32,281 bases of DNA from Clostridia bacterium. Lineage in GTDB: Bacteria; Bacillota; Clostridia; Oscillospirales; Acutalibacteraceae. Below, piece after piece: positions 1 through 31,192 of the stretch (the stretch's first letter is position 1; every line of letters starts with the position of its first letter). The notes under the pieces were generated by a model, which saw nothing but the letters and a program-made list of their open reading frames with translations, was not told the DNA's origin and did no database searches. A program made the translations under genes and the position numbers. The stretch is from NCBI GenBank assembly GCA_017403265.1, contig JAFQOJ010000053.1:1-32281 (forward strand), written 5' to 3'.

Positions 1-134
1 GAAGGCAAATAAAAAGCCCCTTTAGGGGCAGCCGGTGAAAGTGTTGCGGTTGGCAAACTTTTCGACGAGCCTATAGGCTCAGCCGGTCTTATGCCCTAAG
101 GGGGGCAGTGCATACTACCGGCACGGCCGGTAGT
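1..134. repeat. Multi-hairpin intergenic structure downstream of the left operon
   Basis: Four hairpins sit in 134 bases: GCCCC/GGGGC (16-20 with 25-29), GAGCC/GGCTC (67-71 with 76-80), TGCCC/GGGCA (92-96 with 103-107) and a 9-bp stem ACTACCGGC/GCCGGTAGT (114-122 with 126-134). The first two are each followed on the plus strand by the same heptamer AGCCGGT (30-36 and 81-87), giving a 51-nt period. The structure lies just past the stop of the minus-strand gene ending at 163. It could be a 3'-UTR structure, a dispersed intergenic repeat or a small RNA. I do not recognise the family. Confidence 0.5.
6..29 (-). terminator. Intrinsic terminator of the FAD-oxidoreductase operon
   Basis: Read on the minus strand, a GCCCC-TAAA-GGGGC stem-loop is followed immediately by TTTTTATTT. 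It is the last hairpin in the cluster downstream of the gene ending at 163 and is a plausible rho-independent stop for the operon that starts near 6451. The stem is short (5 bp) but entirely GC. Confidence 0.6.
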
Positions 135-162
135 TATGATTGAGGTAATATTTAAATTTCTA

Positions 163-1962: not shown

Positions 1963-1994
1963 TTTAATTCCTCCAATTATATGTTTTTGGTTTC

Positions 1995-3341: not shown

Positions 3342-3369
3342 AATCATAATTCCTTAAACAACTTCGAGT

Positions 3370-4341: not shown

Positions 4342-4350
4342 AAGTATCAC

Positions 4351-5136: not shown

Positions 5137-5149
5137 TTGAAACATTCTT

Positions 5150-6451: not shown

Positions 6452-6483
6452 ATAAACGCATACTCCTAGATTTATATAGGTAT

Positions 6484-6512
6484 ATGATAACTTATTATAT
6501 ATTTATAGTCAA
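6484..6512 (-). promoter_or_regulatory. Promoter of the left (AraM-FAD) operon
   Basis: On the minus strand, -35 TTGACT (6507-6512) and -10 TATCAT (6484-6489) are separated by exactly 17 nt; each box matches 5 of 6 consensus bases. The transcript would start near 6477, about 25 nt before the first start codon at 6451, which has AGGAG 11 nt upstream. It lies back to back with the regulator's promoter. Confidence 0.65.
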
Positions 6513-6527
6513 TCAATAATGAAGTTA

Positions 6528-6557
6528 TTGACAAATTGGTCATAAATTGATTATAAT
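6528..6557 (+). promoter_or_regulatory. Promoter of the DeoR-type regulator gene
   Basis: A perfect -35 TTGACA (6528-6533) and a perfect -10 TATAAT (6552-6557) are separated by 18 nt. It drives the regulator starting at 6600. The -35 boxes of this and the divergent promoter form a symmetric GTCAAT...ATTGAC arrangement (6508-6532). Confidence 0.7.
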
Positions 6558-6578
6558 TATGATTATAATGATTATATT
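6549..6578 (+). promoter_or_regulatory. Candidate operator: three GATTATAAT repeats
   Basis: Three direct copies of a 9-mer: GATTATAAT at 6549 and 6561, and GATTATATT at 6570. The first copy covers the -10 box of the regulator's promoter and the others lie around its predicted start. The placement would suit autoregulation by the DeoR protein. AT-rich sequence makes chance repetition possible. Confidence 0.4.
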
Positions 6579-6599
6579 TTGACTATTAAGAGGTGTAGT

Positions 6600-7292
6600 A
6601 TGGCTGTATATAACCGCGAAAACCAATATATCAATCTTTTGGCGCAAAAACCGTATTCTGTAAAGGAATTATCTGAAAAATTATTTATAAGCGAGCCGAC
6701 AGTAAGGCGAGATTTAATATTTTTACAGAAAAAAGAACTGGTGAGCTGTAAAAGGGGTATTGTAACCCTTAAAACAAACTCACCAGACCAACGCATCCCC
6801 TTATTTATACGGCACCTAGAGCAAAATGAAGCCAAACAGGTAATTGCAAGAAAAGCATTATCACACATTAAAAACGGATATGTGATAATGCTTGATGCTT
6901 CTACAACTGCTTTTCATTTACTTCCTTATCTTACTAATTTTAAAAATATATTGGTAATAACAAATGGCGCAAAAACCGCATTAGAATCTGCATCGATGGG
7001 AATCAGAACTATCTGCACTGGTGGGGAAATGACGCTTGAATCCTTTTCATATATAGGACCTGATGCCGAATCGGTTTTAAATAAATACAATGCCGATATT
7101 GCGTTTTTCTCCTGTAGGGGAATTGCCAATAAAATTGCTACAGATAATTCTATTATGGAAAATAATCTTAGAAGAATTATGATAAAAAATTCAAAATACA
7201 AATTCTTATTGTGTGATAAAAGTAAATTTGATAACACCTATCTGAATACGCTATGTAATATAGATGATCTAGACGGTTTGATAACCGATTAA
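6600..7292 (+). CDS. DeoR-family transcriptional regulator, 230 aa
   Basis: Typical DeoR/GlpR architecture and length. The N-terminal winged helix-turn-helix (about residues 18-45) contains VKELSEKLFISEPTVRRDL, whose TVRRDL recognition helix is the family hallmark. The C-terminal sugar-phosphate sensor (DeoRC) starts around residue 70, with segments LDASTTAFHL, VITNGAKTAL, CTGGEM and CDKSKFD. The start is the ATG at 6600, preceded by AGAGG at 6-nt spacing; a longer TTG-initiated reading frame from 6579 has no ribosome site. It is divergent from the five-gene catabolic operon, so it most likely represses that operon until a phosphorylated sugar intermediate binds. The effector is unknown. The gene overlaps the convergent PHP gene by 4 bp at the stop codons. 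Confidence 0.9.
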   Translation: MAVYNRENQYINLLAQKPYSVKELSEKLFISEPTVRRDLIFLQKKELVSCKRGIVTLKTNSPDQRIPLFIRHLEQNEAKQVIARKALSHIKNGYVIMLDASTTAFHLLPYLTNFKNILVITNGAKTALESASMGIRTICTGGEMTLESFSYIGPDAESVLNKYNADIAFFSCRGIANKIATDNSIMENNLRRIMIKNSKYKFLLCDKSKFDNTYLNTLCNIDDLDGLITD

Positions 7293-8110
7293 ATACTTAT
7301 TTTATTAAGCTTTCGGTTTTTAAAATAGCATATATCTTTGAAACCGATTTCCTTTAAAACCTTTATTGCGGCTTCAAAATTAGCCGATGCATTTTGAGCT
7401 ATATGTGCATCAGAGCCCAGCGTTATCAACCTGCCGCCCATTTTATAATATTTTTTTAATATTTCTTTGTTTGGTATAAAATCATTTAATACGATGTATG
7501 ATGTATTTACTTCAAGCGCAATATTTTTTTCGATTATCAATTTTAAAATATTTAAAATCCTGTCTTTAAATATGCTAATATCAATATTTAGTCCGTATTT
7601 TCCTATAATATATCTAAGCGGACAGGTGAGATGCGCTAAAATATCAAAATTCATATATTCAAGCATTGTAATCATATCGTTAAAATAGCAATCTAAAAAT
7701 TCGTGAAGTCTTTCTTTACTTACTTTTGAAAAATCTAATTTTGCATAGGGATCCTCCAAACCCTTACATTTTACACAATGAACTGAACCGATTATAACAT
7801 CATAGGGTAATAAACCGTGTATTTTTTCACAAGCCTTCGGATACCAAAAGCCCTCGCTGATTTCTACGCCAGATAATATAATACATTTATCGCCATATTT
7901 TTTATTTAATGCCTTGACATTGTCATAGGCATTTTTTATTGGTGTGTATATATCAAAATCATTGGAGTAAAAAACATCACAGTGGTCTGTAACAGCGAAA
8001 ATTTTAGTCCCTTTCTCGATTTGAGAAAGGCACATATCTTCTATTGTACAAACCGAATCGTGTGAATACTCGGAATGAGTATGCATATCTGCAATTAAAG
8101 CATTATCCAT
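7289..8110 (-). CDS. PHP-domain phosphoesterase (histidinol-phosphatase-like), 273 aa
   Basis: PHP-superfamily metal-dependent phosphoesterase. The metal ligands are visible: DMHTHSEYSHD (His10, His12, His17), VTDHCD (Asp42-His43), a GVEISEG glutamate, GSVHC, ILAHLTCP and the C-terminal GSDAH. The overall order and length resemble HisK-type histidinol phosphatases, but no his genes are nearby, so it may act on another small phosphate. The start is the ATG at 8110, with AAAGG about 10 nt upstream; a longer frame to 8128 would start at TTG. It follows the ZIP transporter by 38 bp with no visible terminator, so co-transcription is likely. Its stop codon overlaps that of the regulator on the other strand, leaving no room for a terminator between them. 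Confidence 0.85.
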   Translation of the reverse strand: MDNALIADMHTHSEYSHDSVCTIEDMCLSQIEKGTKIFAVTDHCDVFYSNDFDIYTPIKNAYDNVKALNKKYGDKCIILSGVEISEGFWYPKACEKIHGLLPYDVIIGSVHCVKCKGLEDPYAKLDFSKVSKERLHEFLDCYFNDMITMLEYMNFDILAHLTCPLRYIIGKYGLNIDISIFKDRILNILKLIIEKNIALEVNTSYIVLNDFIPNKEILKKYYKMGGRLITLGSDAHIAQNASANFEAAIKVLKEIGFKDICYFKNRKLNKISI

Positions 8111-8148
8111 AATATATTTACCTTTCAAAATAGGGTTTTAAGTTTTGG

Positions 8149-8901
8149 TTATCCCAAAAGTACATCAGTTATAAGCATTACGCAAAAACCTATAAGCAGG
8201 GAATAGGTGGCAGCGCGCTCACTTCCGTGGGCATGGGTTTCGGGAATCATTTCGTCGCTTATAATATAAAGCATTGTTCCGCCTGCAAAAGCTAAACCAA
8301 ACGGTAAAATTACGGCAGAAATATTGATTGCGAAAAAGCCTATTAAGGTGCCGAAAACTTCGATTAGTCCTGTAAATAAGGCATAAATAAAGGTTTTAGA
8401 AGGCTTTATACCTGCGGCAAGCATAGGGCCTATTATAACTATGCCTTCGGGAATATTTTGAAGCGCAATACCGCCTGCAATCATTAAAGCCTGTGCCGTA
8501 TCACCCGAGCCGAAGCCTGAGCCTGCGGCAATACCTTCGGGGAAGTTATGTATTGCAATAGCAATAACAAATAAGAGTACACGGTTTGTTTTTGCGATGT
8601 TGTGCTCTTCGGTGTTGGCATCTACAAATTTGTGTAGGTGAGGTACCGCCTTGTCAATAATATTTAGGAAAAAAGCACCCGCAAACAGACCTATAATGCA
8701 TTTTATAATACCGTATTTACCGCCGTATTCAATAGAGGGTAAAATAAGACCCAAAATTGCGGCGGCAAGCATTATACCTGCGGCAAAGGATAAAATTATA
8801 TCTGAAAATTTGTGGGATATTTTTTTAAAACAAAAGCCTATCAGCGCACCGATAACTGTAGCACCGCCTACTCCTAAGGCTGTAAGTAAAACCATTTGCA
8901 T
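8149..8901 (-). CDS. ZIP-family divalent metal transporter, 250 aa
   Basis: Inner-membrane permease of the ZIP family (GufA/ZupT-like) that moves zinc, iron or manganese into the cytoplasm. About eight hydrophobic segments are present. The two metal-site helices are clear: AIHNFPEGIAAG near residue 118 and ALQNIPEGIVI near residue 146, with the His/Asn/Glu pattern of the bacterial GufA branch. A short hydrophilic loop with His residues (HLHKFVDANTEEH, about 88-100) precedes them. Start at 8901 with GGAGG 8 nt upstream. It heads a probable two-gene unit with the PHP enzyme, which itself needs metals, though that link may be coincidental. The metal specificity cannot be read from sequence. Confidence 0.9.
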   Translation of the reverse strand: MQMVLLTALGVGGATVIGALIGFCFKKISHKFSDIILSFAAGIMLAAAILGLILPSIEYGGKYGIIKCIIGLFAGAFFLNIIDKAVPHLHKFVDANTEEHNIAKTNRVLLFVIAIAIHNFPEGIAAGSGFGSGDTAQALMIAGGIALQNIPEGIVIIGPMLAAGIKPSKTFIYALFTGLIEVFGTLIGFFAINISAVILPFGLAFAGGTMLYIISDEMIPETHAHGSERAATYSLLIGFCVMLITDVLLG

Positions 8902-8923
8902 AGTAATAACCTCCGTTAAATAT

Positions 8924-8932
8924 ATAATATCA
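8924..8932 (-). promoter_or_regulatory. Possible extended -10 promoter of the ZIP gene
   Basis: On the minus strand, TGATATTAT fits an extended -10 element (TG-N-TATTAT), about 22 bp upstream of the start codon, with no good -35. This is a weak call. Confidence 0.3.
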
Positions 8933-8980
8933 CAATTTTTCCTGATTTTCCATAGTAACGCGAAAAATTAATAAATTTAG

Positions 8981-8989
8981 TGGTATACT
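8981..8989 (+). promoter_or_regulatory. Extended -10 promoter of the Ntn-hydrolase gene
   Basis: TGGTATACT fits an extended -10 (TG-N-TATACT). A recognisable -35 is missing, as is usual for extended -10 promoters. The coding start is at 9022. Confidence 0.45.
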
Positions 8990-9021
8990 AATTGCATAAT
9001 GTTGTGAAGGATGAAATAAAT

Positions 9022-9996
9022 ATGTGCACAGCACTTAGGTTTACGGCTTATAATAACTATTTCGGCAGAAATCTTGACCTTGATATTAGCTACGCTGAGG
9101 AGGTTTGTGTAATGCCGCGTCATTTTCCGCTGATTTTTAGAAAAATGGGGGAGATGACTAAGCATTACGGAATGGTTGGTATGGCCACTGTGGTAGACGG
9201 TGTTCCGCTTTTTTATGATGGTGTTAATGAATGCGGACTTGCTATGGCGGGGCTTGCATTCCCCGAAAATGCACATTATTCTAAGGTAGTGAATGGCAAA
9301 AATAATATTGCTTCGTTTGAGTTTATACCTTGGATTTTGGGACAAGCAAAAACAGTAGACGAGGCGGAAGCTTTACTTTCGAGAATAAATCTTGTAAACA
9401 TAACTTTTAATGAAAAGCTGCCCACAACACCTTTACATTGGATGATTGCCGACCGCAACCGTTCAATTGTAGTAGAGTTTACGAAGGACGGTATGCATGT
9501 ATACCAAAATAAAACGGGAGTGCTTACAAACAATCCGCCGTTTCCTTATCATCTTAAAAATTTAGAAAACTACCGCCATTTACGAAATGATGATAAAAAT
9601 GTAGAACGCAGTAAAATCACCGAATATTCCGATTATAGTAAAGGTTTAGGTGCGCTGGGGTTACCAGGGGACGTTTCTTCAATGTCGCGCTTTGTGCGTA
9701 TGGCTTTTTTAAGTGAAAATTCTGTAAAACCTAACGATGAAAGTTCGTCTGTAGGGCAGTTTTTTCATCTGCTTTCGTCGGTTGAAGCTGTTAAAGGGGC
9801 GTGCAAAACCGAAACGGGCGCATTTGATATAACGGCTTACAGCTCTTGTATGAATATAGATAAAGGTCTTTATTATTACACTACCTACTCTAACCGCCGT
9901 ATAAGCTGTGTTAATATGCACGCCATCGATTTACAAAGCGACAAAATAAGCCGTTTTCCGCTTATTTTAGATGAAAGCATTAAGCTTCAAAATTAA
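9022..9996 (+). CDS. Linear amide C-N hydrolase (bile salt hydrolase/penicillin V acylase family), 324 aa
   Basis: Choloylglycine-hydrolase family Ntn hydrolase. Translation from the ATG at 9022 gives Met-Cys-Thr; removal of Met exposes Cys2, the catalytic nucleophile. Other active-site residues of the family are present: Arg16 and Asp19 (FGRNLD), Asn170/Asn171 in VLTNNP, and Arg223 in SMSRFVR. The length matches bile salt hydrolases (~315-330 aa). A reading frame from 8992 would bury the nucleophile ten residues inside, so it is rejected; GAAGGA lies ~10 nt before 9022. No signal peptide, so cytosolic. It could deconjugate glycine- or taurine-bile acids or cleave acyl-homoserine lactones or penicillin V; motif reading alone does not decide. 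It stands alone, convergent with the lipoprotein gene. Confidence 0.88.
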   Translation: MCTALRFTAYNNYFGRNLDLDISYAEEVCVMPRHFPLIFRKMGEMTKHYGMVGMATVVDGVPLFYDGVNECGLAMAGLAFPENAHYSKVVNGKNNIASFEFIPWILGQAKTVDEAEALLSRINLVNITFNEKLPTTPLHWMIADRNRSIVVEFTKDGMHVYQNKTGVLTNNPPFPYHLKNLENYRHLRNDDKNVERSKITEYSDYSKGLGALGLPGDVSSMSRFVRMAFLSENSVKPNDESSSVGQFFHLLSSVEAVKGACKTETGAFDITAYSSCMNIDKGLYYYTTYSNRRISCVNMHAIDLQSDKISRFPLILDESIKLQN

Positions 9997-10002
9997 AAAT
10001 TT

Positions 10003-10031
10003 GCAGCAAACTATCCAAGATAATTTGCTGC
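10003..10031. terminator. Bidirectional hairpin between convergent genes
   Basis: GCAGCAAA (10003-10010) pairs with TTTGCTGC (10024-10031), extended inward by TATC/GATA across one mismatch and a CAA loop. On the minus strand it is followed by AAATTTTTAATTTT, so it works better for the lipoprotein operon; the plus-strand tail is T-poor. Confidence 0.55.
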
Positions 10032-10076
10032 TGATTGATATTATGTAGCTAATTTTTAATATATAGCTTTGCAATA

Positions 10077-10943
10077 TTATTTTAACGCATCTGCAACTTG
10101 GCTTATACCGCCAAGGCAGGCTTTTGCAAAATCTTCACTGTATTCGGGTTGCCATTCTTTGCCGTGACCTACTACAGAAAGCTTTACTGTTTTTTCTATG
10201 GGCTTTTTCTTGCCTTCCTTCAAGGCGTCTTTGAAGGCTTTATCTATTTTTTTGGCAATCTCTTGTGGAGTTAGGTCAGGACTGTTTGTCGCAATTTCTG
10301 AAGATGCCTTTACATAATTTCGGTATACCTTTTTGAAGTTTAAAGCCGTAATTTTAACCGTTACGGTAGCTTTGGTAGCATCTGTACGCTTGGCAGAAAC
10401 AATTTTATAATCAAGCTCTGAAAAAATGTTTTTAATTTTTTCTATTGTTGCATTATCGAAGCCTAAGGATTCTTGTGGTGGGCGCTCGCCAGTAAGACTG
10501 TTTTGCGCAGTTTCAAAATCTCCTTCTTTAATTGCATCAAGCAAAGCGCTGACCGCTTTTTTGGCGTAGCTGATTTGTGAAGTGTTTGAAGTTGTATCAG
10601 TGGTTGACTCATTCTTAGAGGTTGCCGATTCTGTAGAAGCTACAACATCACTGCTTACACCTGCAATGTCTGAATTATAATCAGAAAAATCAGGTCGGCT
10701 ATGATATTCTTCAATATGTTCTTCGGAAGATGAGTAAGTAGAAGATGCTTCTGAAGTTGTTGTATTTTGGGAATTTGAAGAACCCGAGTTATTTGTAATC
10801 AGTGAAGTCTCAATGCTATCGGTAGCAAGGGAGCTTTCTTCATTTTCGGAAGAAACAGGTTGTTCACTTTTACAACCAGCCATAAGAGCAATCACAGATA
10901 TTATAAGTGCAAATGTAAGAAAAATCTTTAATGCTTTTATCAT
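10077..10943 (-). CDS. Ser/Thr-rich lipoprotein with C-terminal globular domain, 288 aa
   Basis: Probable membrane-anchored lipoprotein. Residues 1-24 form a signal peptide (Lys3/Lys6, a hydrophobic core, lipobox MAGC with Cys24 as the lipidated residue). Residues ~25-125 are a low-complexity linker rich in Ser, Thr, Glu and Asn, typical of a tether through the cell wall. The rest is a folded domain (AKKAVSALLDAIKEGDFETA onward) of the type seen in Clostridial lipoproteins with DUF4878- or DUF5105-like, NTF2-like folds; the exact family is not certain. It is the last gene of the surface-polymer operon, 18 bp after the LicD gene, whose stop region carries its ribosome site. The role is unknown; a cell-envelope function is inferred from the operon. 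Confidence 0.75.
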   Translation of the reverse strand: MIKALKIFLTFALIISVIALMAGCKSEQPVSSENEESSLATDSIETSLITNNSGSSNSQNTTTSEASSTYSSSEEHIEEYHSRPDFSDYNSDIAGVSSDVVASTESATSKNESTTDTTSNTSQISYAKKAVSALLDAIKEGDFETAQNSLTGERPPQESLGFDNATIEKIKNIFSELDYKIVSAKRTDATKATVTVKITALNFKKVYRNYVKASSEIATNSPDLTPQEIAKKIDKAFKDALKEGKKKPIEKTVKLSVVGHGKEWQPEYSEDFAKACLGGISQVADALK

Positions 10944-10961
10944 TGTTTTTTTAACCTTTTA

Positions 10962-12503
10962 TTAATCAATAACATCTTCACGCAAATTAAAAGCGTGTTT
11001 TCTCATTTTAGTTACCTTTACGGGCGGAATAGTATCATAATTTCTGCCGTAAACGGTTTTTAATATGTAATCATATTCGCAGGGAACAGGCATTTTATAG
11101 CCTTCAAAATCCATATATACAGGTTCACCGAAAAATCCGCTTGGGAATACTTCTTTATAATACGGATAATAACTGCACAGGTTTACTAAGTATTTTCTGT
11201 TTCCGTTATAAAACTTTTTCATATTTTTTATAGCAAGCTTTTCAATAGAGCGGTTGCTTATAAAAGGTAATAGTAATTTTAATACTCTTCGTGTAAGTTT
11301 CTTTTTGGTTACAGGTGAATAGCCTGTTTTCATAAATAGCATTTTTCTGCAAATTTTTTGAATCGTACTGATAAAATGAACTTTTCGTCCTGCAGGTCTG
11401 TTCCAATATTCAAGTGGAAAAATATCAACATAAGGACCGTTGCATTTTGAAAGCTTTGTTACCTTGTGCTGTATATAGGGTGTTTGGCGTACTAATTGCA
11501 TTTTAGCGCCCAAAACCCAATGCTTTGGGTTATTTTCGAGCGAGTCAAAATTAAGCTCGGGCGGTATTTCTCCGTTTTTGGCAAGCTCTACAAGCTTATC
11601 ATAATCATCGCGCGGCATTGCAATATCAATATCATCATCCCACGGAATAAAGCCGTTGTGTCTTACTGCGCCTAAAAGTGTACCCTCGGTAAGATAGAAA
11701 CGCAAATTGTGCTTTTCTAAAAACTCTTTGGTTAAAACCAATGTCTCAAGAGTGTATTTTTGAAGACCTTTAACAAAGCTTGCACGTTCTCGTTTTGCAA
11801 TGTAGGAGGGGTTATCAACAAAGCTTTGTGGGTCAAAATCAGCATATTGTCGGTTTAGTTCTTCTAGTTTAGATTCCAAGCCGCGTGCTTCATAATAGTT
11901 ATACAAATCTGCCAACTTAACTTTTTTGAAGATGCGGTATACTGCATACTGTATGGTATCATAATCTAAATCGGTTGTTTTTTCGCCTAAAGCAGTAATT
12001 AACTGCTGACACTTGGTGTCTCCTATAAACTCAGGTACCTTAAAATCTAACAACTCGTTTATAAAATCCAACTGTTTTGGAATATCACTATACGAAGTGC
12101 AACCGAGTGTGGCACACAATAGGTCAAGGCGGGGGATGAAGTCGTTTTCTTCTTCTATATTTTCAGTAAAAAATCTAACATAAGCACTGCATAAAAATGA
12201 TACCGCTAAGACTGAGCTTTCGGTTTCATCAAGACTTAAATAATCGCTTAAGGTTTGCTTGAAATCTTGAGCGAGTGAAAGAGAATTTTTAGCTAAACCA
12301 GATGTTTTTTCTGTAACACCGTCAAGTATTTTCTCTGCTTTTTCTTCATTTCTTAAATAAGGCATTAAATTTCTTGATATCAATTTATACAAAGAAACTG
12401 CACCTATGCTACTATCGCTATCAATACTATTGCTTGAAATGATATCAACGCAGTCGGCCACCGCTTTAGAACATATTAATTTTTTGTCAGCCAACTTTAA
12501 CAT
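10962..12503 (-). CDS. LicD-family phosphotransferase with long N-terminal helical region, 513 aa
   Basis: The C-terminal half is a LicD domain, a nucleotidyltransferase-fold protein that transfers phosphocholine or similar phospho-groups to cell-surface glycans. The hallmark segment at about residues 275-305 reads TEGTLLGAVRHNGFIPWDDD followed by IDIAMPRDDY, containing the acidic metal-binding residues. The N-terminal ~230 residues are mainly helical, match nothing I recognise, and make the protein nearly twice the size of a plain LicD (~270 aa). No membrane segment. Start at 12503 has AGGGGAAG 9 nt upstream. It is fourth in the operon, with another LicD domain in the first gene. No licA, licB or licC lies in the window, so the transferred group need not be choline. 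Confidence 0.85.
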   Translation of the reverse strand: MLKLADKKLICSKAVADCVDIISSNSIDSDSSIGAVSLYKLISRNLMPYLRNEEKAEKILDGVTEKTSGLAKNSLSLAQDFKQTLSDYLSLDETESSVLAVSFLCSAYVRFFTENIEEENDFIPRLDLLCATLGCTSYSDIPKQLDFINELLDFKVPEFIGDTKCQQLITALGEKTTDLDYDTIQYAVYRIFKKVKLADLYNYYEARGLESKLEELNRQYADFDPQSFVDNPSYIAKRERASFVKGLQKYTLETLVLTKEFLEKHNLRFYLTEGTLLGAVRHNGFIPWDDDIDIAMPRDDYDKLVELAKNGEIPPELNFDSLENNPKHWVLGAKMQLVRQTPYIQHKVTKLSKCNGPYVDIFPLEYWNRPAGRKVHFISTIQKICRKMLFMKTGYSPVTKKKLTRRVLKLLLPFISNRSIEKLAIKNMKKFYNGNRKYLVNLCSYYPYYKEVFPSGFFGEPVYMDFEGYKMPVPCEYDYILKTVYGRNYDTIPPVKVTKMRKHAFNLREDVID

Positions 12504-12540
12504 ACTTTTTTACTTCCCCTTTAAAAATAGCAAGCTTTTG

Positions 12541-14808
12541 TTATTTTTTCTTTTTCTTTTTATTATATCTACTGTTATATTTTTTCAAAACCGTTACGGT
12601 GTCAAGCTCTTCCGATGCGAAGTCTTTAAAAATTTCTTCTCTTTCGGCAGTGTATTTTATGGGCCAAGAATGGTTATTATTATAAATATCGCTTATAGGA
12701 ACTTCTATAAGGCAAAGGTTTTCTTTTACTTCTTCTAAGAATTTCATACCCTTTGCAGTTGCAATTTTAAGTGCTGATACACCTGTTTTATCTGCCTTTA
12801 GTTTTTTATTAATTTTATTATATCCCCAAAAATCGCCCATTGTTATATCGGCAATCTTATTGTCGCCTGTAAATTCACATCTAAAGCAAGAACGCTTTGC
12901 AAGATATGCACTGACAAAGCAGTGATAGTAGATGTTTTGGCGTCTTGAGGCGGATTCTTCCTTGCCGTTTTCATATTTTAAGGTTGTGGCAACCTTGTTC
13001 CAGCCTTTAGATTTATCTCTGAATGTGATTGATGCAACAGGAGAATTTTTCTTTGCTTCTCTTTCCGAAAGGTAAGACTTTAATATCTTAGGTGATGATG
13101 AGCATGCGCAAATAATTTCAGCCAAAATAAGATTATCATACTCTTTGCCCAAATAGTTTTTAAGACCTGCAATTTTACAGGGAGCACCTGTGAATAAAAC
13201 GGGTTTTCCGGTTTTAAGGGCTTTTTCGGTTTTTTTGTAAATGTTGTTATGCTTTGCTTCAACATATTTAGAACCGCGGAAAGCCTTGGCTTCATTCCAG
13301 GTTTTAACTATATTGTACACCGCAACATTATTTTTGTTGTAATTAACGCCAACGATATATCCACCCTTAGATATAATGTTTTTAGCAAAAATCGGGAACA
13401 TACCGCCTGATGCCGAGTTTTCTGAATCAAAAACATCCTTAGTATAGGCCATATAGCCTACTGATTTAAAGCCTTCCTCACGCTTTTTAGTGTTATAAGG
13501 GCAAACGCGGTTACACTTACCGCAGTTTATACAAAGCTCTTTATTTATAACGGGCTGATAAAATCCTTCACTGTCCGCTTTTAAGGTAATCGCTTCGGTA
13601 GGGCAGGCATCCTTACAGGCGCAGCAGCCATAGCAGGTAAATTTATCACCGCTTGTGAAATAATCGCTTACGCGTTCACTTTTTTTACCGTTTAAAACAG
13701 TGTCGATAAATTCAGCGGACGCAGGACGCATATCTTCCATTTTTTTGTGAATATCATCAAAATCTATTGGAATATCTTTAAAATCGGGAAGATTGTCATT
13801 AGGGTCTACAAAATGCCCAGAAAGGTCGAGCTTTGAAAAAAGATTTTCCAAACGGTCATTGTTTCGGTCTCTTTTAAGCGTGATAAAATTCTTTTTAAAT
13901 AGCAAAGAAAATACAGAAAGGTGAAACGACTGTGTAATCACATATTCCGCATGCGCAATAGCATTAAGAGTTTCAATGGGACCTGCACTTCTTGTTTTGG
14001 CAAGTTCATTTTTAAACTTTGCGGTTTGAAGGTTATGAACTATTGGAAGACCTGTTCTTTTAGAAAGCTCTTTTGCTGCATTAACAAGATCTTCTGCTTT
14101 TGCTGAATAATGGTGAACATGTACATAAATATATTTTTTGTCACCGTAAGGGCTTTTTTTATAAATAAAGCTTTTAAAATACTCGCGGTTGGGCAGGAAG
14201 GTAGGGTCGCACACAACCGAGATTTCTTTATCGGTCAAGGTAGAAAAAAGTTCCTTGGCTTTTTCTTCTCTAACCGAAATATAGTCAAGTTTTTTGAAAT
14301 ATTCTGAGAAAACTGGAATCTCACGTTCGGGAACTTCGGGATTGCCGATGCTAGCCCCATAGGAAGCGATAATGGTGTTTTTGTCTACAAAATCGCCGAA
14401 AAACGCAGGGTCAAGACCCTTGGTTATGGTGCTATTCCAAATTTGGTCACTACCTACGAATACAACATCAAATTTAAGCTTTGCATTTCTGAGTTGTTTA
14501 ACCGTAGTGTAGGTTTCGGTTAAATTAAATTGCGCTTTAAAAAACTTTTCAAAACGGTATCTGCGAAGTGGCATATACGGTTTTTTGCGGGCTTCCTTAA
14601 ACCATTTTCCAAAGTATTTTCTTTTAGATTTTGCAGTACTTCCGGGTAAAAGGTGTCCCGGACGGTAGGATTTTTCTATATTGTTGTTTCTGTAATTTAT
14701 AATCTGTACAGTATGGCCTAAAGACTCCAGGTACTTTTTAAGTCCTAAAGCCTGCATAACTGTACCAAAATTATGAGCATTATTAACCGAAATAATGCCA
14801 ATCTTCAT
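12541..14808 (-). CDS. Polysaccharide pyruvyltransferase fused to 4Fe-4S/FrhB-like module, 755 aa
   Basis: Two enzymes in one chain. Residues 1 to ~365 form a polysaccharide pyruvyltransferase domain (CsaB/WcaK-like) starting MKIGIISVNNAHNFGTVMQALG, with FVGSDQIWN and the late AEYVITQSFHLSVFSLLF segment. Two ferredoxin clusters follow: CYGCCACKDACP (near 389-400) and CINCGKCNRVCP (near 424-435), each CxxCxxCxxxCP. Residues ~445-755 match the coenzyme F420 hydrogenase/dehydrogenase beta-subunit (FrhB) family, with SASGGMFP, TGAPCKIAGLKNY and ITMGDFWG. In glycan loci these FrhB-like proteins usually sit beside pyruvyltransferases as separate genes. The chain ends in a lysine run (KKKKKK). Start at 14808 has AGGAG 7 nt upstream; it lies 12 bp after the acyltransferase. 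Cytosolic. The redox role is unproven. Confidence 0.88.
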   Translation of the reverse strand: MKIGIISVNNAHNFGTVMQALGLKKYLESLGHTVQIINYRNNNIEKSYRPGHLLPGSTAKSKRKYFGKWFKEARKKPYMPLRRYRFEKFFKAQFNLTETYTTVKQLRNAKLKFDVVFVGSDQIWNSTITKGLDPAFFGDFVDKNTIIASYGASIGNPEVPEREIPVFSEYFKKLDYISVREEKAKELFSTLTDKEISVVCDPTFLPNREYFKSFIYKKSPYGDKKYIYVHVHHYSAKAEDLVNAAKELSKRTGLPIVHNLQTAKFKNELAKTRSAGPIETLNAIAHAEYVITQSFHLSVFSLLFKKNFITLKRDRNNDRLENLFSKLDLSGHFVDPNDNLPDFKDIPIDFDDIHKKMEDMRPASAEFIDTVLNGKKSERVSDYFTSGDKFTCYGCCACKDACPTEAITLKADSEGFYQPVINKELCINCGKCNRVCPYNTKKREEGFKSVGYMAYTKDVFDSENSASGGMFPIFAKNIISKGGYIVGVNYNKNNVAVYNIVKTWNEAKAFRGSKYVEAKHNNIYKKTEKALKTGKPVLFTGAPCKIAGLKNYLGKEYDNLILAEIICACSSSPKILKSYLSEREAKKNSPVASITFRDKSKGWNKVATTLKYENGKEESASRRQNIYYHCFVSAYLAKRSCFRCEFTGDNKIADITMGDFWGYNKINKKLKADKTGVSALKIATAKGMKFLEEVKENLCLIEVPISDIYNNNHSWPIKYTAEREEIFKDFASEELDTVTVLKKYNSRYNKKKKKK

Positions 14809-14820
14809 AATATTACTCCT

Positions 14821-15891
14821 CTATAAAAGCTTTTTGATAATCGGTATTTTAGAAACTATAAATGCCCAAAGGTAGCAAACTATTACGCCTATAGCAAATA
14901 TTGCAAAAAGTAGACCTGCCGATTCTAAATCGGTGAGACTTGCCAAAATCTTGCGCGGAAAATAAATTTGTACAGAGCGTAAGTAAAGCATATGTACCAA
15001 ATATGCCGAAAATGAGAGTATTCCCAAAGCGGAAATAAAGTTTGCCCATCCGTCGCGTACGGTTTTTTGCTCATAATGAAGCTTTGCAAGTATCATAACC
15101 GCAACCGACAAAAATATTACAAAGGGCCATGTTATATCAAGATAGGTTTGGTTGATTTTTTCTTGTGAAAAATAATAGGTCATAACAGTCATTGCGCCCA
15201 AGGATATAAAAATCGTTGCCCACATTGATAATTTAAGAGGTAATGTGCGTTTTAAATCGGTACCGTAATTGTGGATAAAATAGCCAATCAAGGTGTAATT
15301 AAGGTAAACACCCGCTTTACCGTATGAATAGTATCCAATTTTCATATCAAAACACATTTCTAAAATGTTGTTTAACAAGGGCATAAATGAATTGATAATA
15401 AAGAAAACGGAAATTAGGGTTAATAACTGCTTTTTAGTGAGGCTTTGCACCAATTTGCGTAAAAAAGGAAAGATGAAATACAAAGGAATAAGGGCATAGA
15501 TATACCAAAAATGGCCCGAAATACTTGGGCGTAAAAGCTTACGTAAAAATATGCCGATACCTAAAGCGTATTCCTTTTTTACAAAAACATAAAACAGGTA
15601 ATATATAACCGAATAAACCAAAAAAGGAATAGCAATTTTTGAAAGACGTCGCTTTATAAATGAACCGTAGGATTCTTCTTTTGTTGAGGAAAGTATTGTA
15701 GCGCCGCTTATCATAAAAAAGGTAGGAACAGCAAACTGTGTTAATGCTTTCAAGAAAACAAGATTTGTCCAAAAAACTGTTTTTACCTCGAATGCGTTTA
15801 TATAATACATAACCACATGGGTGAGAATTACCATTATTGAGCATATAACACGCAAAGCATCAATGTAGGTGTAGCGAGAGGTTTTACTCAT
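14821..15891 (-). CDS. Membrane acyltransferase (acyltransferase family 3), 356 aa
   Basis: Integral membrane O-acyltransferase of the Acyl_transf_3 (OafA/WecH-like) family, which puts acetyl or succinyl groups on surface sugars. The start SRYTYIDALRVICSIMVILTHV carries the conserved Asp, Arg and His of the first helix; about ten hydrophobic segments follow. FFMISGATIL, HFWYIYALIPLYFIFPFLRK and the late FSAYLVHMLYL are also family-like. Length is normal. Start at 15891 has AGGAG 7 nt upstream. It is the second gene of the operon, 14 bp after the glycosyltransferase-LicD gene, so it probably decorates the same polymer. The acyl group and acceptor are unknown. Confidence 0.88.
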   Translation of the reverse strand: MSKTSRYTYIDALRVICSIMVILTHVVMYYINAFEVKTVFWTNLVFLKALTQFAVPTFFMISGATILSSTKEESYGSFIKRRLSKIAIPFLVYSVIYYLFYVFVKKEYALGIGIFLRKLLRPSISGHFWYIYALIPLYFIFPFLRKLVQSLTKKQLLTLISVFFIINSFMPLLNNILEMCFDMKIGYYSYGKAGVYLNYTLIGYFIHNYGTDLKRTLPLKLSMWATIFISLGAMTVMTYYFSQEKINQTYLDITWPFVIFLSVAVMILAKLHYEQKTVRDGWANFISALGILSFSAYLVHMLYLRSVQIYFPRKILASLTDLESAGLLFAIFAIGVIVCYLWAFIVSKIPIIKKLL

Positions 15892-21540: not shown

Positions 21541-21570
21541 AAAAATTCTCCTTAAAATTAAGCTAAAACA

Positions 21571-21599
21571 ATTCTATCATAAATAGTCCTAAATATCAA
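21571..21599 (-). promoter_or_regulatory. Promoter of the ACT-DUF711 operon
   Basis: Minus-strand -35 TTGATA (21594-21599), 17-nt spacer, -10 TAGAAT (21571-21576). The leader is about 25 nt. Confidence 0.7.
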
Positions 21600-21683
21600 T
21601 TACCAATTTATTGCCTAAAAATGCTGTTTTTTTGGTCAAAATGATTAAAAACAAAAAAAGTTAGATATTTTTATAACAATATA

Positions 21684-21712
21684 TTGACAAAATACCGATA
21701 ATGATATACAAT
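21684..21712 (+). promoter_or_regulatory. Promoter of the riboswitch-pflBA transcript
   Basis: A consensus -35 TTGACA (21684-21689), 17-nt spacer and -10 TACAAT (21707-21712). The expected start is near 21719, three bases before the riboswitch P1 stem begins. Confidence 0.8.
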
Positions 21713-21721
21713 ATCTTGTGC

Positions 21722-21794
21722 AACGATATATAACTGACGGATAATATGGGTGACCATAGGGGAGTATGTCGTTTTTGTGCCGACCGTCTGGGCG
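21722..21794 (+). ncRNA. ZTP riboswitch (pfl motif) aptamer
   Basis: The features of the ZTP/ZMP aptamer appear in order. P1 pairs AACGATATA (21722-21730) with TATGTCGTT (21765-21773), with one G-U. Next comes ACTGACGG (21733-21740), then P2 TATGG/CCATA closed by a GTGA tetraloop (21745-21758), then GGGGAG (21759-21764). After the linker, the second subdomain carries CCGTCTGGGC (21784-21793). GACGG (21736-21740) pairs with CCGTC (21784-21788) as the pseudoknot. ZTP riboswitches sense AICAR nucleotides, which build up when 10-formyl-tetrahydrofolate is short. Here the aptamer precedes pflB, whose product formate feeds that pool. The assignment is by eye against the known motif, not by covariance search. 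Confidence 0.88.
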
Positions 21795-21836
21795 ATTCAG
21801 TTTGATTTAAGTTAATTGAGCTGGGTTGCTTTTTTT
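21792..21836 (+). terminator. Riboswitch-controlled intrinsic terminator
   Basis: GCGATTCAG (21792-21800) pairs with CTGGGTTGC (21821-21829) with three G-U pairs; pairing continues inward through TTTGATT/AATTGAG, and seven T residues follow (21830-21836). The 5' arm shares its first two bases with the aptamer's conserved CTGGGC. Ligand binding should compete with terminator formation, so the predicted output is transcription on at high ZTP/ZMP. Confidence 0.78.
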
Positions 21837-21875
21837 GACCTATAATTTCAGAATATTAAAATTAAGGAGAACCAT

Positions 21876-24107
21876 ATGAAACACGATAATTGGAACGGTT
21901 TTAAAAACGGTGTTTGGCAGGATGAGATAAATGTTAGAGATTTTATTCAGCAAAACTACACCGAATATAAGGGTGATGATTCCTTTTTAGCCGAGGCTAC
22001 ACCCCGCACTAAAGATCTTATGAAAAAGCTTAACGCTCTATTTATGGTAGAGCGTCAGTTCGGCGGTGTATTGGATATTGATACTGCTACTGTTTCTTCG
22101 CTCACTTCATTTGAGCCGGGTTATTTAGATAAAGAAAACGAGATTATAGTAGGTCTTCAAACCAACCGCCCCTTAAAGCGCGGTATTAACCCCTTTGGTG
22201 GTATTCGTATGGCAAGACAGGCCTGCAACGCTTACGGCTATAAATTAAGTGAAAAGATTGAAAATGAATTTCAGTATAGAACAACCCATAACGAAGGTGT
22301 TTTCAGAAGCTATACCAATGAAATGAGATTGGCTCGTAGAAGCCATGTTATTACAGGACTACCCGATGCTTACGGAAGAGGTCGTATTATAGGCGACTAC
22401 CGCCGTGTAGCGCTTTACGGTATCAACCGCCTTATAGAAGAAAAGCAAAAGGATAAGGAAAAGCTGGGTGAGGGTAACTTCAGCGATGAAGAAATCCGCC
22501 TTGCTGAAGAGCTTTTTAAACAGATTTCTTTCTTAGGTTATATGAAAGATATGGCTGAGATGTACGGCTACGATATAAGCGGACCCGCCAAGGATACACG
22601 CGAGGCTGTACAGTGGACCTATTTTGCATACCTTGCCGCTATTAAGGAGCAAAACGGCGCAGCAATGAGTATGGGTAGAGTAAGCACCTTCTTTGATATT
22701 TATATTGAGCGCGATATCAAAAACGGTACTTTAACTGAAGAAGGCGCACAGGAAATTATTGATGATTTCGTAATGAAGCTTCGTATGGCGCGTCACCTCC
22801 GCACACCAGAATATAACGAGCTTTTTGGCGGTGACCCAATGTGGATTACCGAAGCGGTAGGCGGTATGGGTGAGGATGGAAGAACCTTAGTTACAAAGTC
22901 AAGCTTCCGTATTCTTAATACCCTTTATACACTAGGCTCTTCACCTGAACCTAACCTTACTGTTTTATGGTCGAATGCGCTGCCGCGCGGCTTTAAAAAG
23001 TTTTGCACCAAGGTTTCTATTGATACTGATTCTATTCAATATGAAAATGATGACCTTATGCGCCCGATTTACGGCGACGATTATGCAATCGCTTGTTGTG
23101 TTTCGGCTATGCGTGTAGGTAAGCAGATGCAGTTCTTCGGCGCCCGTTGTAATTTGCCTAAATTATTGCTTATTGCTTTAAACGGCGGATATGATACTAC
23201 AAGTGATATTCATATTGGTCCGCAAAAATCGGTAATAGATGGCGATGTGCTTGATTACGATAAGGTAATGGAGCGTGTGGATGAATATTTAGCTTGGCTT
23301 GCAAAGCTCTATGTTAATACAATGAACATTATCCACCGCACCCACGATAAATATGCTTATGAAAAATCCCAAATGGCTTTGCACGATACCAAGGTTGAGC
23401 GTCTTATGGCGTTTGGTGTAGCGGGTCTTTCGGTTATAACCGACTCGTTAAGCGCTATTAAATACGCAAATGTTAAGCCTATAAAGGATTCACGTGGATA
23501 TATTATAGATTTCGAAACCGTGGGTGAATTCCCAACCTTTGGTAACGATGATGACCGAGTTGACTCAATCGCACAGGAAATAGCACACAAAACTATTGTA
23601 GAGCTTCGTAAAACACCTACCTACCGGGATGCTATTCATACCCTTTCGGTGCTTACTATTACATCCAATGTTATGTACGGTAAGAATACAGGTGCTACAC
23701 CTGACGGCAGAAAAGCAGGCGATGCATTCGCACCAGGTGCCAACCCCATGCATAACCGCGAAAAGAATGGAGCCTTGGCATCGCTTAACTCGGTTGCTAA
23801 AATCAGCTATGACGACTGCCGTGACGGTATTTCTAATACCTTCTCTATCACTCCCGAAACCTTGGGCAAGGAAAAGGGCGAGCAGATTAACAATCTGGTA
23901 GCTATTTTAGACGGATATTTTGCAAAAAATGCTCACCATATCAATGTAAATGTGCTCAACCGTGAAACCTTGATTGAAGCATATAATGACCCTGAAGCTT
24001 ACCCCAACCTTACAATTCGTGTTTCTGGTTATGCAGTAAACTTCCATAAGTTGTCAAAGGAACAGCAAAAGGAAGTTATAAGCCGTACCTTCCATGAGGT
24101 TATGTAA
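21876..24107 (+). CDS. pflB: Pyruvate formate-lyase (formate C-acetyltransferase), 743 aa
   Basis: Glycyl-radical enzyme that converts pyruvate and CoA to acetyl-CoA and formate in the anaerobic cytosol. The adjacent catalytic cysteines Cys407-Cys408 lie in [12 protein letters not shown], and the radical glycine is Gly718 in [11 protein letters not shown], 25 residues from the end. [21 protein letters not shown] is also characteristic of true PFL rather than the diol-dehydratase-like relatives. Length is close to the usual ~740-760 aa. The start at 21876 has AAGGAGA five bases upstream. Its mRNA leader is a ZTP riboswitch plus terminator, tying expression to one-carbon demand. pflA follows with a one-base overlap. 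Confidence 0.97.
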
Positions 24108-24826
24108 TGGGTAGAATCAGTTCGTTACTATCTTTAGGTACACTTGACGGACCGGGTATACGCTATGTTGTGTTTATGCAGGGTTGTCCTTTGCGGTGTG
24201 CTTGCTGTCATAACCCAGAAACCCACGATATAAACGGTGGGCAAGAGTATACCGCAGACGAGATAGTCGAAAAGGTTGTAAAGTATAAAGAATACTTTGG
24301 TGAAGACGGCGGCATAACCCTTTCAGGAGGTGAGCCACTGCTTCAAGCCGAGTTTGCTACCGAAATTTTTAAAAAGGCAAAGGAGAACGGGATAAACACC
24401 TGCCTTGATACAAGCGGTTGTATTTTAAATGAGAGCGTTAAAGAATTGCTCAAGTATACCGATTACTGTATGCTAGATATTAAGTATTCAACCGATGAGC
24501 TTTATCAAAAATATGTAGGCTGCGGTATCGATACTCCGCTTGAATTTTTAAGGTATTTACACCAAAACAAAATACCTACCCGTATAAGACAGGTTATAGT
24601 GCCTACTATCAACGATACAAAAGCTGATACAGATGCTTTATATGAGCTTATAAAAGACTTTGAAATTGATAAGGTAGAGCTTTTGCCCTTTAAGAAAATA
24701 TGTCAGACTAAATATGACAGTATGGGCATAGAGTTCCCATTTGGGAGTATTCCCTCGGCAAATGCAAAATCCACAAAAATCTTACAGGATAATATAAACA
24801 GTAAACTTAAAGAAAAAATCCTTTAG
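24107..24826 (+). CDS. pflA: Pyruvate formate-lyase activating enzyme, 239 aa
   Basis: Radical SAM enzyme that abstracts a hydrogen from Gly718 of PflB. The iron-sulfur motif CxxxCxxC is Cys27, Cys31 and Cys34 in GCPLRCACCHNPE, and the SAM-contact segment GGITLSGGEPLLQ follows near residue 65. It lacks the extra ferredoxin insert found in activases of other glycyl-radical enzymes, in keeping with a PFL-specific activase; length is typical (~240-250). The start ATG shares its A with the pflB stop TAA, and GAGG in the last pflB codons serves as ribosome site, so the two are translationally coupled. Its final codons lie inside the terminator hairpin. Confidence 0.96.
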   Translation: MGRISSLLSLGTLDGPGIRYVVFMQGCPLRCACCHNPETHDINGGQEYTADEIVEKVVKYKEYFGEDGGITLSGGEPLLQAEFATEIFKKAKENGINTCLDTSGCILNESVKELLKYTDYCMLDIKYSTDELYQKYVGCGIDTPLEFLRYLHQNKIPTRIRQVIVPTINDTKADTDALYELIKDFEIDKVELLPFKKICQTKYDSMGIEFPFGSIPSANAKSTKILQDNINSKLKEKIL

Positions 24827-24849
24827 AGTTATACTCTAAAGGATTTTTT
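24813..24849. terminator. Bidirectional terminator between pflA and lplA
   Basis: A 17-bp perfect stem: 24813-24829 pairs with 24833-24849 around a TAT loop. A-runs on one side and T-runs on the other make it an intrinsic terminator on both strands. The 5' arm includes the last codons and stop of pflA (24824-24826). Confidence 0.9.
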
Positions 24850-28717: not shown

Positions 28718-31192
28718 ATGCCTAAGAATTTATTTGTAGACCCTAACGAAGTCCGTCAAGCAGGTAAGGTTGTTTTTAACGACATTCCTGTAAACCAGTA
28801 CAACAAAACCATTAAAGAAGAATTAAAGTCGGGAAAATATACTAAAGAAGACCTTATTCGTATTTTCCGTGATATGACCGTTTTGCGTGAGTTTGAGACC
28901 ATGCTTAACCTTATTAAAACACAAGGCTCTTATAACGGTATTGACCATACATACCCAGGCCCTGCTCACCTTTCTACAGGTCAGGAAGCCGCTTGTGTAG
29001 GACAGGCGTATCTTTTGGATGAAAATGACTTTGCGTTCGGTTCACACCGTAGCCACTCTGAAATTCTTGCAAAAGCGCTCTCTACAATACAGAAGATGAG
29101 CGATGAGCAGTTGATGGAGGTTATGGAAAACTTCTTAGAGGGTAAGTGCTTGCGCGCAACCGAGAAGTTGGGCGAGTGTAAGGATGTAAAGGAATTAGCA
29201 ATCCGCTTTATTCTTTACGGTACGCTTTCCGAAATTTTTGCCCGTGAAACCGGTTTCCATATGGGTATGGGCGGTTCTATGCATGCATTTTTCTTACCCT
29301 TTGGTATCTATCCCAACAACGCAATCGTTGGCGGCTCGGGTACAATCTCTACAGGTGCGGCTCTTTATAAAAAAATTAACGATAAAAAAGGTATTGTTGT
29401 TTGCAATGTGGGTGACGCTGCTATGGCACGCGGTCCTGTTTGGGAAGCGCTTAACTTCTCAGCTATGGACCAGTATAAGACCCTTTGGGAATCCCATAAC
29501 GACGGAATGCCAATTCTTTATAATATCTTTAATAACTCTTACGGTATGGGTGACCAAACTCGCGGCGAAACAATGGGACAAGACAGAATGTCTCGAATTG
29601 CTTCGGGTGTAAGCCCAACACAATTCCATGCTGAAACTGTTGACGGCTTTAATCCCTTGGCAGTCATTGAAGCTATGGAGCGTAAGCTAGAGCTTTTGCG
29701 TAACGGTCAGGGCCCTGTAATGCTTGAAACTATTACTTATCGTTTCTCAGGTCACTCTGTTTCTGACCAAAATGCGTATCGCACTAAGGAGGAAATAGAC
29801 ACTTGGAAGGAATGTGACCCGCTAGTAACCTACCCTGCAAAGCTTGTTGAAGCGGGTGTGCTTACTGAAGATGAAGTTAACGCTATTCTAAAAGAAACTT
29901 CTGACCGTATGACTATGATATGCAAGGCAGCAGCAGACCCCGAAATCAGTCCCTATTGTGATTTCAATAAGGACCCCGCTGTAGTAGAACGTCTTATGTT
30001 CTCTAACGAAAAGGTTGAAAAGTTTGATAATCGTGAGCCTGAATATCTTGTTCCTAAGGAAGAAGCAGAAGCTTATAAGAAGATTAAGAGCAAGGTTCGA
30101 AACAGTGTAGATGAAAACGGTAAACCTGTTTCTAAGATGAAGATGTTTAACCTTCGCGATGCTTTGTCTGAAGTTATTTACGACCGTTTCTACGAAGACC
30201 CAACACTTATAGCATATGGTGAAGACTGTCGTGACTGGGGTGGCGCTTTTGCGGTTTATCGCGGTATGATGGATGCATTACCGCACAGCCGTATTTTCAA
30301 CTCTCCTTTGGCAGAGGGTGCTATTGTTGGTACCGCAGTTGGTTATGCGCTTTCGGGCGGACGTGCTTTGGTTGAACTTATGTATGCCGACTTTATCGGT
30401 TGCGCAGGCGATGAAATCTTTAACCAGATGTCTAAATGGCAGGCAATGTCGGCTGGTATTCTTAAAATGCCTGTGGTACTTCGTGTATCGGTTGGTTCTA
30501 AATACGGCGCTCAACATTCACAAGACTGGACCGCACTTTGTGCACATATCCCCGGTCTTAAGGTTTGCTTCCCTGCAACACCTTGGGAGGCTAAGGGTCT
30601 TATGGAATCAGCGTTAAAGGGAACAGACCCTGTTGTATTTTTTGAAAGTCAAAGAATTTATGATGTAGGCGAACAGTTCCACGAAGGAGGCGTACCCGAA
30701 GAGCGTTATGAAATTGAATTCGGCGATGTTAATAAGGTGCGCGACGGTAAGGATGTAACAATTATTACCATAGGTGCCGCTCTTTACAGAGCAATGGATG
30801 CCGCAAAACAATTAAGCGAAAAATATGGTATGGAAGCTGATGTTATCAACCTACATTCTTTGGTTCCGCTTGATTATGAAAAGATAGTTGAGTCTGTTCG
30901 CAAAACAGGCAGAGTTGTTCTTGTGTCTGACGCATGTGCTCGCGGTTCTTTCTTAAACGATGTTGCTAAGAATATTACCGAGCTTTGCTTTGATGACCTT
31001 GATGCACCACCTGTTGTAATAGGTGCTCGCAACTGGATAACACCTCCGTTTGAATTTGATGAATTCTTCTTCCCGCAGGCTAGCTGGATTCTTGATGCAA
31101 TCAATGAGAAGATAGTTCCGTTACCGAACTATGTTGTACAAAACGGTTGCACCGAAACAGAAGCTTTACGCCGTGCAAAGCAGGGTGTATAA
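28718..31192 (+). CDS. 2-oxo-acid dehydrogenase E1, fused alpha-beta, 824 aa
   Basis: Thiamine-diphosphate decarboxylase of the complex, with both subunits in one chain. The alpha half (~1-440) carries GPAHLSTGQEAACVG, the HRSHSE segment and the cofactor motif from Gly232-Asp233 to Asn272-Asn273, where the spacing is longer than in most E1-alpha proteins. A lysine-rich linker follows (~440-472). The beta half (~473-824) starts FNLRDALSEVIYDRF and includes AYGEDC, PLAEGAIVGTAVGYAL, HSQDW and SLVPLDYEKIVESV. Start at 28718 with AAGGAGG upstream, 12 bp after lpdA. Fusion ensures equal amounts of alpha and beta. Pyruvate is the natural guess given pflB nearby, but acetoin or branched-chain 2-oxo acids are not excluded. 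Confidence 0.92.
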   Translation: MPKNLFVDPNEVRQAGKVVFNDIPVNQYNKTIKEELKSGKYTKEDLIRIFRDMTVLREFETMLNLIKTQGSYNGIDHTYPGPAHLSTGQEAACVGQAYLLDENDFAFGSHRSHSEILAKALSTIQKMSDEQLMEVMENFLEGKCLRATEKLGECKDVKELAIRFILYGTLSEIFARETGFHMGMGGSMHAFFLPFGIYPNNAIVGGSGTISTGAALYKKINDKKGIVVCNVGDAAMARGPVWEALNFSAMDQYKTLWESHNDGMPILYNIFNNSYGMGDQTRGETMGQDRMSRIASGVSPTQFHAETVDGFNPLAVIEAMERKLELLRNGQGPVMLETITYRFSGHSVSDQNAYRTKEEIDTWKECDPLVTYPAKLVEAGVLTEDEVNAILKETSDRMTMICKAAADPEISPYCDFNKDPAVVERLMFSNEKVEKFDNREPEYLVPKEEAEAYKKIKSKVRNSVDENGKPVSKMKMFNLRDALSEVIYDRFYEDPTLIAYGEDCRDWGGAFAVYRGMMDALPHSRIFNSPLAEGAIVGTAVGYALSGGRALVELMYADFIGCAGDEIFNQMSKWQAMSAGILKMPVVLRVSVGSKYGAQHSQDWTALCAHIPGLKVCFPATPWEAKGLMESALKGTDPVVFFESQRIYDVGEQFHEGGVPEERYEIEFGDVNKVRDGKDVTIITIGAALYRAMDAAKQLSEKYGMEADVINLHSLVPLDYEKIVESVRKTGRVVLVSDACARGSFLNDVAKNITELCFDDLDAPPVVIGARNWITPPFEFDEFFFPQASWILDAINEKIVPLPNYVVQNGCTETEALRRAKQGV

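Follow-up and report, generated by a model that had tools for sequence, protein, structure and literature searches.

In Weinberg et al. 2010, the discovery paper of the pfl RNA motif, pfl is one of the five genes that most often accompany the motif, and the logic leading from formate through formyl-THF to purines is already set out there (PMC2864571). The identity of the ligand was settled after the motif had been discovered, by Kim et al. 2015 (as told in PMC7266159), and the fold takes its name from its frequent association with the pyruvate formate-lyase (PFL) gene (PMC7337938). An ON-switch mechanism has been published for the ZTP class (PMC7337938; PMC10085676), the second of these sources being a study of the pfl ZTP riboswitch of Clostridium beijerinckii that also mentions others regulating pflA. 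Deletion of pfl in C. thermocellum lowers the growth rate 2.9-fold on defined medium and 2 mM formate restores the mutant to 80% of the parent growth rate, a rescue for which formyl-THF supply has been proposed as the reason (PMC4536278). Association, mechanism and physiological link are already in print. None of the 10 papers listed by a literature search on ZTP riboswitch regulons of gut Clostridia uses the term ZTP riboswitch, and a search on PFL and anaplerotic formate yielded papers that were for the most part unrelated.

The locus described here lies in a stretch of 32,281 nucleotides of DNA from a Clostridia bacterium, analysed as a whole and referred to below as the window. Its relevant features are as follows:

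21684..21712, plus strand: sigma-70-type promoter, TTGACA-17-TACAAT, 11 of 12 consensus matches
21720..21800, plus strand: ZTP/ZMP riboswitch aptamer (RF01750, pfl motif), 59.8 bits against a gathering score of 39
21722-21731 with 21764-21773, plus strand: aptamer stem P1, part of the RF01750 match
21736-21740 (GACGG) with 21784-21788 (CCGTC), plus strand: aptamer pseudoknot
21745-21749 with 21754-21758, plus strand: aptamer stem P2, closed by the GTGA loop at 21750-21753
21759-21764, plus strand: GGGGAG of the aptamer
21778-21781 with 21791-21794, plus strand: aptamer stem P3
21790..21837, plus strand: predicted intrinsic terminator, a stem at 21790-21831 (17-18 pairs) and a U-tract, the 5' arm containing the P3 3' arm (21791-21794)
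21864..21870, plus strand: ribosome binding site AAGGAGA, read from the sequence
21876..24107, plus strand: pflB, formate C-acetyltransferase, 743 aa (TIGR01255, 1167.6 bits, cut-off 994.2)
24107..24826, plus strand: pflA, PFL-activating radical SAM enzyme, 239 aa (TIGR02493, 247.2 bits, cut-off 231.75)
24813..24849, plus strand: hairpin between pflA and lplA, terminator-like on both strands

We read this leader, with a probability of roughly 0.93, as an ordinary ZTP/ZMP riboswitch that would act as a transcriptional ON switch of the pflBA operon. The aptamer, the overlap of the terminator with it, the gene order and the conservation of the arrangement are direct observations, and we infer ligand binding, the direction of the response and the physiology.

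RF01750 (ZMP-ZTP, pfl RNA motif) is the only Rfam family that exceeds its own gathering score anywhere in the window, and its match (E 1.7e-07) spans the full model from 1 to 86. The first-pass annotation of this DNA had marked out 21722-21875, which is nearly all of the aptamer plus the leader as far as the start codon of pflB (21876), and had suggested a covariance-model search with this family; the search returned the match listed above, and the landmarks named at that stage, P1, the GTGA-capped P2, GGGGAG and the GACGG/CCGTC pseudoknot, are all found within it. For the structure itself we used an alignment (A1) and a model (R1) comprising 48 of the 61 aptamers classified in the family survey below, with the window included as a row and the remaining 13, most of which have long linkers or insertions, left out. 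Across this alignment 92.3% of the cells of the structure pair, compared with 80.0% for shuffles and 39-47% with the partners slid, and both-sided changes occur in 15 of the structure's 24 pairs against a shuffle mean of 10.7. The pseudoknot pairs are formed in 100% of cells, and the outermost P3 pair is weak, being unpaired in 22 of the 48 aptamers. A chance match was considered and rejected on the Rfam score above gathering and on this pairing test. By sequence and pairing the element is a riboswitch of the ZTP class, for which ligand binding and switching are predicted.

A fold of this kind might be retained by a variant that binds another ligand or has lost ligand binding, and at least one relative looks decayed: at about 4850-4965 of locus L107, upstream of pflB, the P3 motif GCCGACCGTCTGG (from 4917) and the hairpin following it are kept and the conserved 5' half is altered, R1 gives no match there at E 0.01, and the aptamer has seemingly decayed. 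The window's own aptamer, however, scores 59.8 bits over the full RF01750 model. In our own reading of the 48-row alignment that includes it, 14 columns reach 90% conservation or more yet are not invariant, and it carries the common base in 12 of these; the two deviating columns are partners in P2, where an A-U pair replaces G-C. A variant aptamer is on these grounds extremely unlikely in the window.

The promoter that had been claimed just upstream of the ZTP riboswitch is present, ends 7 bases before the aptamer match and would place the transcription start near 21719. A scan of the region gave 5 promoter-like sites against a shuffle mean of 2.5 (sd 1.8), and because this count is unremarkable the promoter taken alone is weak evidence. 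The first-pass annotation did not mention a terminator. The hairpin at 21790-21831 with its U-tract is the only terminator-like site in 21541-21880 (shuffle mean 0.2), and 21790-21837 folded alone reaches -18.9 kcal/mol against a shuffle mean of -6.3 (z -7.1, with 0 of 200 shuffles as good). Through the P3 3' arm at 21791-21794 the expression platform overlaps the 3' region of the aptamer, as in the transcriptional ON type, and keeping the first five bases out of the hairpin raises its energy from -18.9 to -10.7 kcal/mol and leaves the stem end farther from the U-tract. In folds of the growing transcript, made with programs that model neither pseudoknots nor kinetics and co-transcriptional folding, P3 is present from transcript end 21794 to 21827, where three pairs remain, and is gone at 21830, where its arm has been taken by the terminator; the fold of the full leader favours the terminator, as expected without ligand. 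Predicted promoter, aptamer, overlapping terminator and pflBA together have the anatomy of a transcriptional ON switch.

The pflB start lies 75 bases beyond the end of the aptamer match, a 5' UTR position, and this interval holds a further promoter-like site just after the terminator (21835-21862, 10 of 12), which could in principle bypass the switch. The leader might then be mainly a constitutive attenuator, with most pflBA expression coming from another promoter or another level of control, redox for example. Transcripts from that site would, however, begin on the ribosome binding site or beside it, the 11 of 12 promoter ends 7 bases before the aptamer match, and relatives show the element in front of pflB again. 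We consider a constitutive attenuator very unlikely and retain the ligand-responsive ON switch as the reading of this leader.

The genes claimed downstream, pflB and pflA, both score above equivalog cut-offs. The pflB product has a Cys-Cys pair at 407-408 and the motif RVSGYAV (Gly718), which we take to be a PFL feature and the glycyl-radical motif of the C-terminal loop, respectively, and the pflA product has a CxxxCxxC motif, presumably the radical SAM cluster motif of the activase. Among the neighbours, lplA and lpd score above their cut-offs, and genes resembling the E2 and E1 components of a 2-oxoacid dehydrogenase complex score below theirs. An 824-aa protein at 28718-31192, behind the E2-like gene and lpd, matches both the pyruvate dehydrogenase E1 alpha and the E1 beta models, each below cut-off, and is apparently a fused E1. 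Elsewhere in the window, the minus strand between 10962 and 17828 carries surface-polysaccharide-like genes, which include two LicD proteins (one fused to a glycosyltransferase), a polysaccharide pyruvyl transferase joined to an F420-hydrogenase beta-like domain, and an acyltransferase, and a choloylglycine-hydrolase family protein (CBAH) at 8992-9996 on the plus strand would fit a gut bacterium.

In the mechanism we propose, the RNA would begin a short way upstream of the aptamer. A shortage of 10-formyl-THF would make ZMP (AICAR), an intermediate of purine synthesis, accumulate together with its triphosphate ZTP; their binding to the aptamer would lock P3 and the pseudoknot, and the terminator could not close; more PFL would then mean more formate, which Fhs would join to THF, giving 10-formyl-THF for purine synthesis. 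With the ligand absent, the downstream strand would take the P3 3' arm, the terminator would form and transcription would halt. That PFL supplies formate for 10-formyl-THF had been proposed at first pass, and it is a sensible logic, the same as that in the discovery paper (PMC2864571). In favour of the ON-switch reading, the genome has fhs, AICAR formyltransferase and folD, with fhs and glyA in its other ZTP-headed cluster; against it, the predicted terminator takes the P3 3' arm only, and the arrangement is not universal among close relatives (G066, L097, L106 and L107).

The related claim, that a central fermentation enzyme is tuned by one-carbon status, is sensible in its formate and one-carbon part and is weakened in its fermentation part, as the genome has a full-length pyruvate:ferredoxin oxidoreductase in addition to lplA, lpd and the E1- and E2-like genes. 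Given these genes, acetyl-CoA formation need not depend on PFL, and the enzyme may therefore be mainly a producer of formate for biosynthesis in this genome.

The genome to which the window belongs (1.70 Mb in 74 contigs, 87% complete, 4% contamination) has two RF01750 matches, the other being:

14934-15012 of locus L035 (contig C8), minus strand: second ZTP riboswitch (RF01750)

Behind it stand 12 genes on the same strand, overlapping or at most 42 bases apart, in the order purE, purC, purF, purM, purN, PurO-type IMP cyclohydrolase, GDSL hydrolase, AICAR formyltransferase, glyA, purD, purL and fhs. NCBIfam cut-offs are passed by purE, purM, purN, AICAR formyltransferase (PRK07106), purD and purL; purC (122 of 190 bits) and purF (173 of 350) fall below theirs, so these two names are best matches only, and IMP cyclohydrolase, GDSL hydrolase and glyA are named from Pfam. 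Within 103-15012 of this locus the last purine steps fall to two proteins, a PurO-type IMP cyclohydrolase standing on its own and an AICAR formyltransferase of one domain, and the GDSL hydrolase sits between the two. The fhs gene extends almost to the end of the contig, beyond which the cluster may continue, and folD is found elsewhere in the genome. Counted on both strands, terminator-like sites in the cluster number 10 against a shuffle mean of 14.3; the scan missed the second switch's own hairpin, which appears in the hairpin listing, and its silence inside the cluster is weak evidence. Promoter-like sites number 49 against a shuffle mean of 38.7 (sd 7.7), several of them on the coding strand within purL. 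Whether fhs is also controlled had been raised as a question, and the answer is probably yes: in a tight same-strand cluster headed by a ZTP riboswitch, control of fhs as the last gene seen is probable, with internal promoters possible. The second riboswitch would probably govern the purE-to-fhs cluster in the same way as the first governs pflBA.

A survey of the genes behind the motif, likewise suggested at first pass, places these two switches among their relatives. In a sample of 120 genomes of the same taxonomic family, RF01750 was found in 51 (the window's own included), 50 of them over cut-off, with 64 matches in all, two of which are below cut-off. We classified 61 of the 64, namely the window, its genome's C8 match and 59 others; G018:C26, G080:C14 and G076:C58 were left out, and in G018 a pflB profile match lies about 73 bases from the riboswitch by coordinates. 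As first gene we took the first frame without overlap that has 100 aa or more and begins no further than 900 bases away, naming it by cluster from scanned members. It is purE behind 30 switches, pflB behind 21, pflA behind 3, guaB, IMP cyclohydrolase and fhs behind 2 each and an ECF transporter component behind 1, which puts purE or pflB first in 51 of 61 cases. At L063 the first gene is 372 bases off, and the rule may have skipped a shorter one. The three pflA-first cases have a pflB match directly behind, cut by the contig end in G042. Ten genomes of the family sample, the present one included, have one switch before pflB and one before purE. The view of pfl control as unusual is rejected by these counts and by the discovery paper (PMC2864571), and the contrast first drawn here between pyruvate formate-lyase and purine or folate genes is not borne out, as pfl is a common and indeed the eponymous target (PMC2864571; PMC7337938). 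The pairing of switch and pflB in the window is ordinary, since the switch family originally took its name from it.

The pairing is nevertheless unevenly distributed. PFL scores over cut-off in 66 of the family genomes, 24 of which have a switch before pflB or pflA-pflB (by coordinates, G018 counted); in the other 42 no such switch match was found at the family survey's stricter filters. Among the listed sample rows only one further genome, G066 (99% complete), belongs to the same genus; it keeps a purE switch (L062), but no PFL in it exceeds the family cut-off, so presence of the pfl branch varies within the genus. Among named pflB loci we used the best 80 of 587 confirmed stretches, which are the closest relatives rather than a sample. 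R1 matches the coding strand upstream of pflB at 50 of these best 80 loci, within 150 bases of the pflB match at 49 of them and at 684 in L131, and the R1 search gave no match at the other 30. Two of the matchless loci have little sequence upstream of pflB (29 bases in L134, 151 in L174), and three, L097, L106 and L107, are close relatives with pflB proteins 78-83% identical. The nearest named relatives among the best 80 are Clostridia and Oscillospiraceae MAGs, many of them from ruminant gut by title, with a top identity of 84%, and a bacterium of this kind is the probable source of the window. Also among these 80, the pflB proteins of L143, L150, L134 and L137 are 65-69% identical to that of the window and come from records labelled Akkermansia, Spirochaetales and Lentisphaerae/Lentisphaeria, which would be either mis-binned contigs or gene transfer; L143 and L150 also have a ZTP element. 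Two tandem aptamers at L118 were considered and rejected, as on reading the sequence the two model hits look like one long-linker aptamer.

Most of the hairpin predicted for the window lies beyond the aptamer, from which it captures the P3 3' arm alone. By our own count, 50 of the 61 family riboswitches have a hairpin with a U-tract in which the 5' arm begins within the conserved CCGTCTGGGC motif, at or after the T before GGGC in 46 and within CCGTC, the pseudoknot strand, in 4. A relaxed hairpin rule finds 58 of 61, with 15 counted as reaching the pseudoknot strand, a figure that is an upper bound because the rule counts the window too, via three extra pairs past the U-tract.

A wider reading, which we offer tentatively and rate as less likely than not, is the following. 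In this Clostridia family PFL would be chiefly a biosynthetic source of formate and not a fermentation enzyme. Through the two ZTP riboswitches over pflBA and purE-to-fhs, a single alarmone would control most of the steps that lead from pyruvate by way of formate to the formyl groups of purines, and a terminator that clamps the P3 3' arm only, sparing the pseudoknot strand, may tune the response in a way unlike the C. beijerinckii model. Small additions made here are the other switch, over purE-to-fhs, the survey of the family and the shallow geometry of the terminator, none of which changes the picture, and with the pfl link eponymous they open no new question about the ZTP class. What they provide is a tidy worked case: within a single genome, two ZTP switches stand over the supply of formate, its activation and the synthesis of purines. 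Two-switch genomes of this kind lend themselves to tests of ZTP as a one-carbon alarmone in Clostridia.

Compared with the RF01750 pfl motif as described at its discovery (PMC2864571), the window is alike in its aptamer, the overlap of terminator and 3' region, the pfl gene downstream and the metabolic logic; we found no difference of weight, and the window is a further genomic instance of that motif. The ZMP riboswitch of Thermosinus carboxydivorans, from another organism than the window's, is likewise transcriptional ON, and in it P3 nucleotides and downstream RNA make up the terminator when ZMP is absent, as predicted for the window (PMC7337938). The switch of C. beijerinckii is also a pfl-named ZTP aptamer in which the ligand guards P3 from displacement by the terminator strand, but there the invading strand proceeds from P3 on through the pseudoknot (PMC10085676), whereas the window's terminator takes the P3 3' arm alone.
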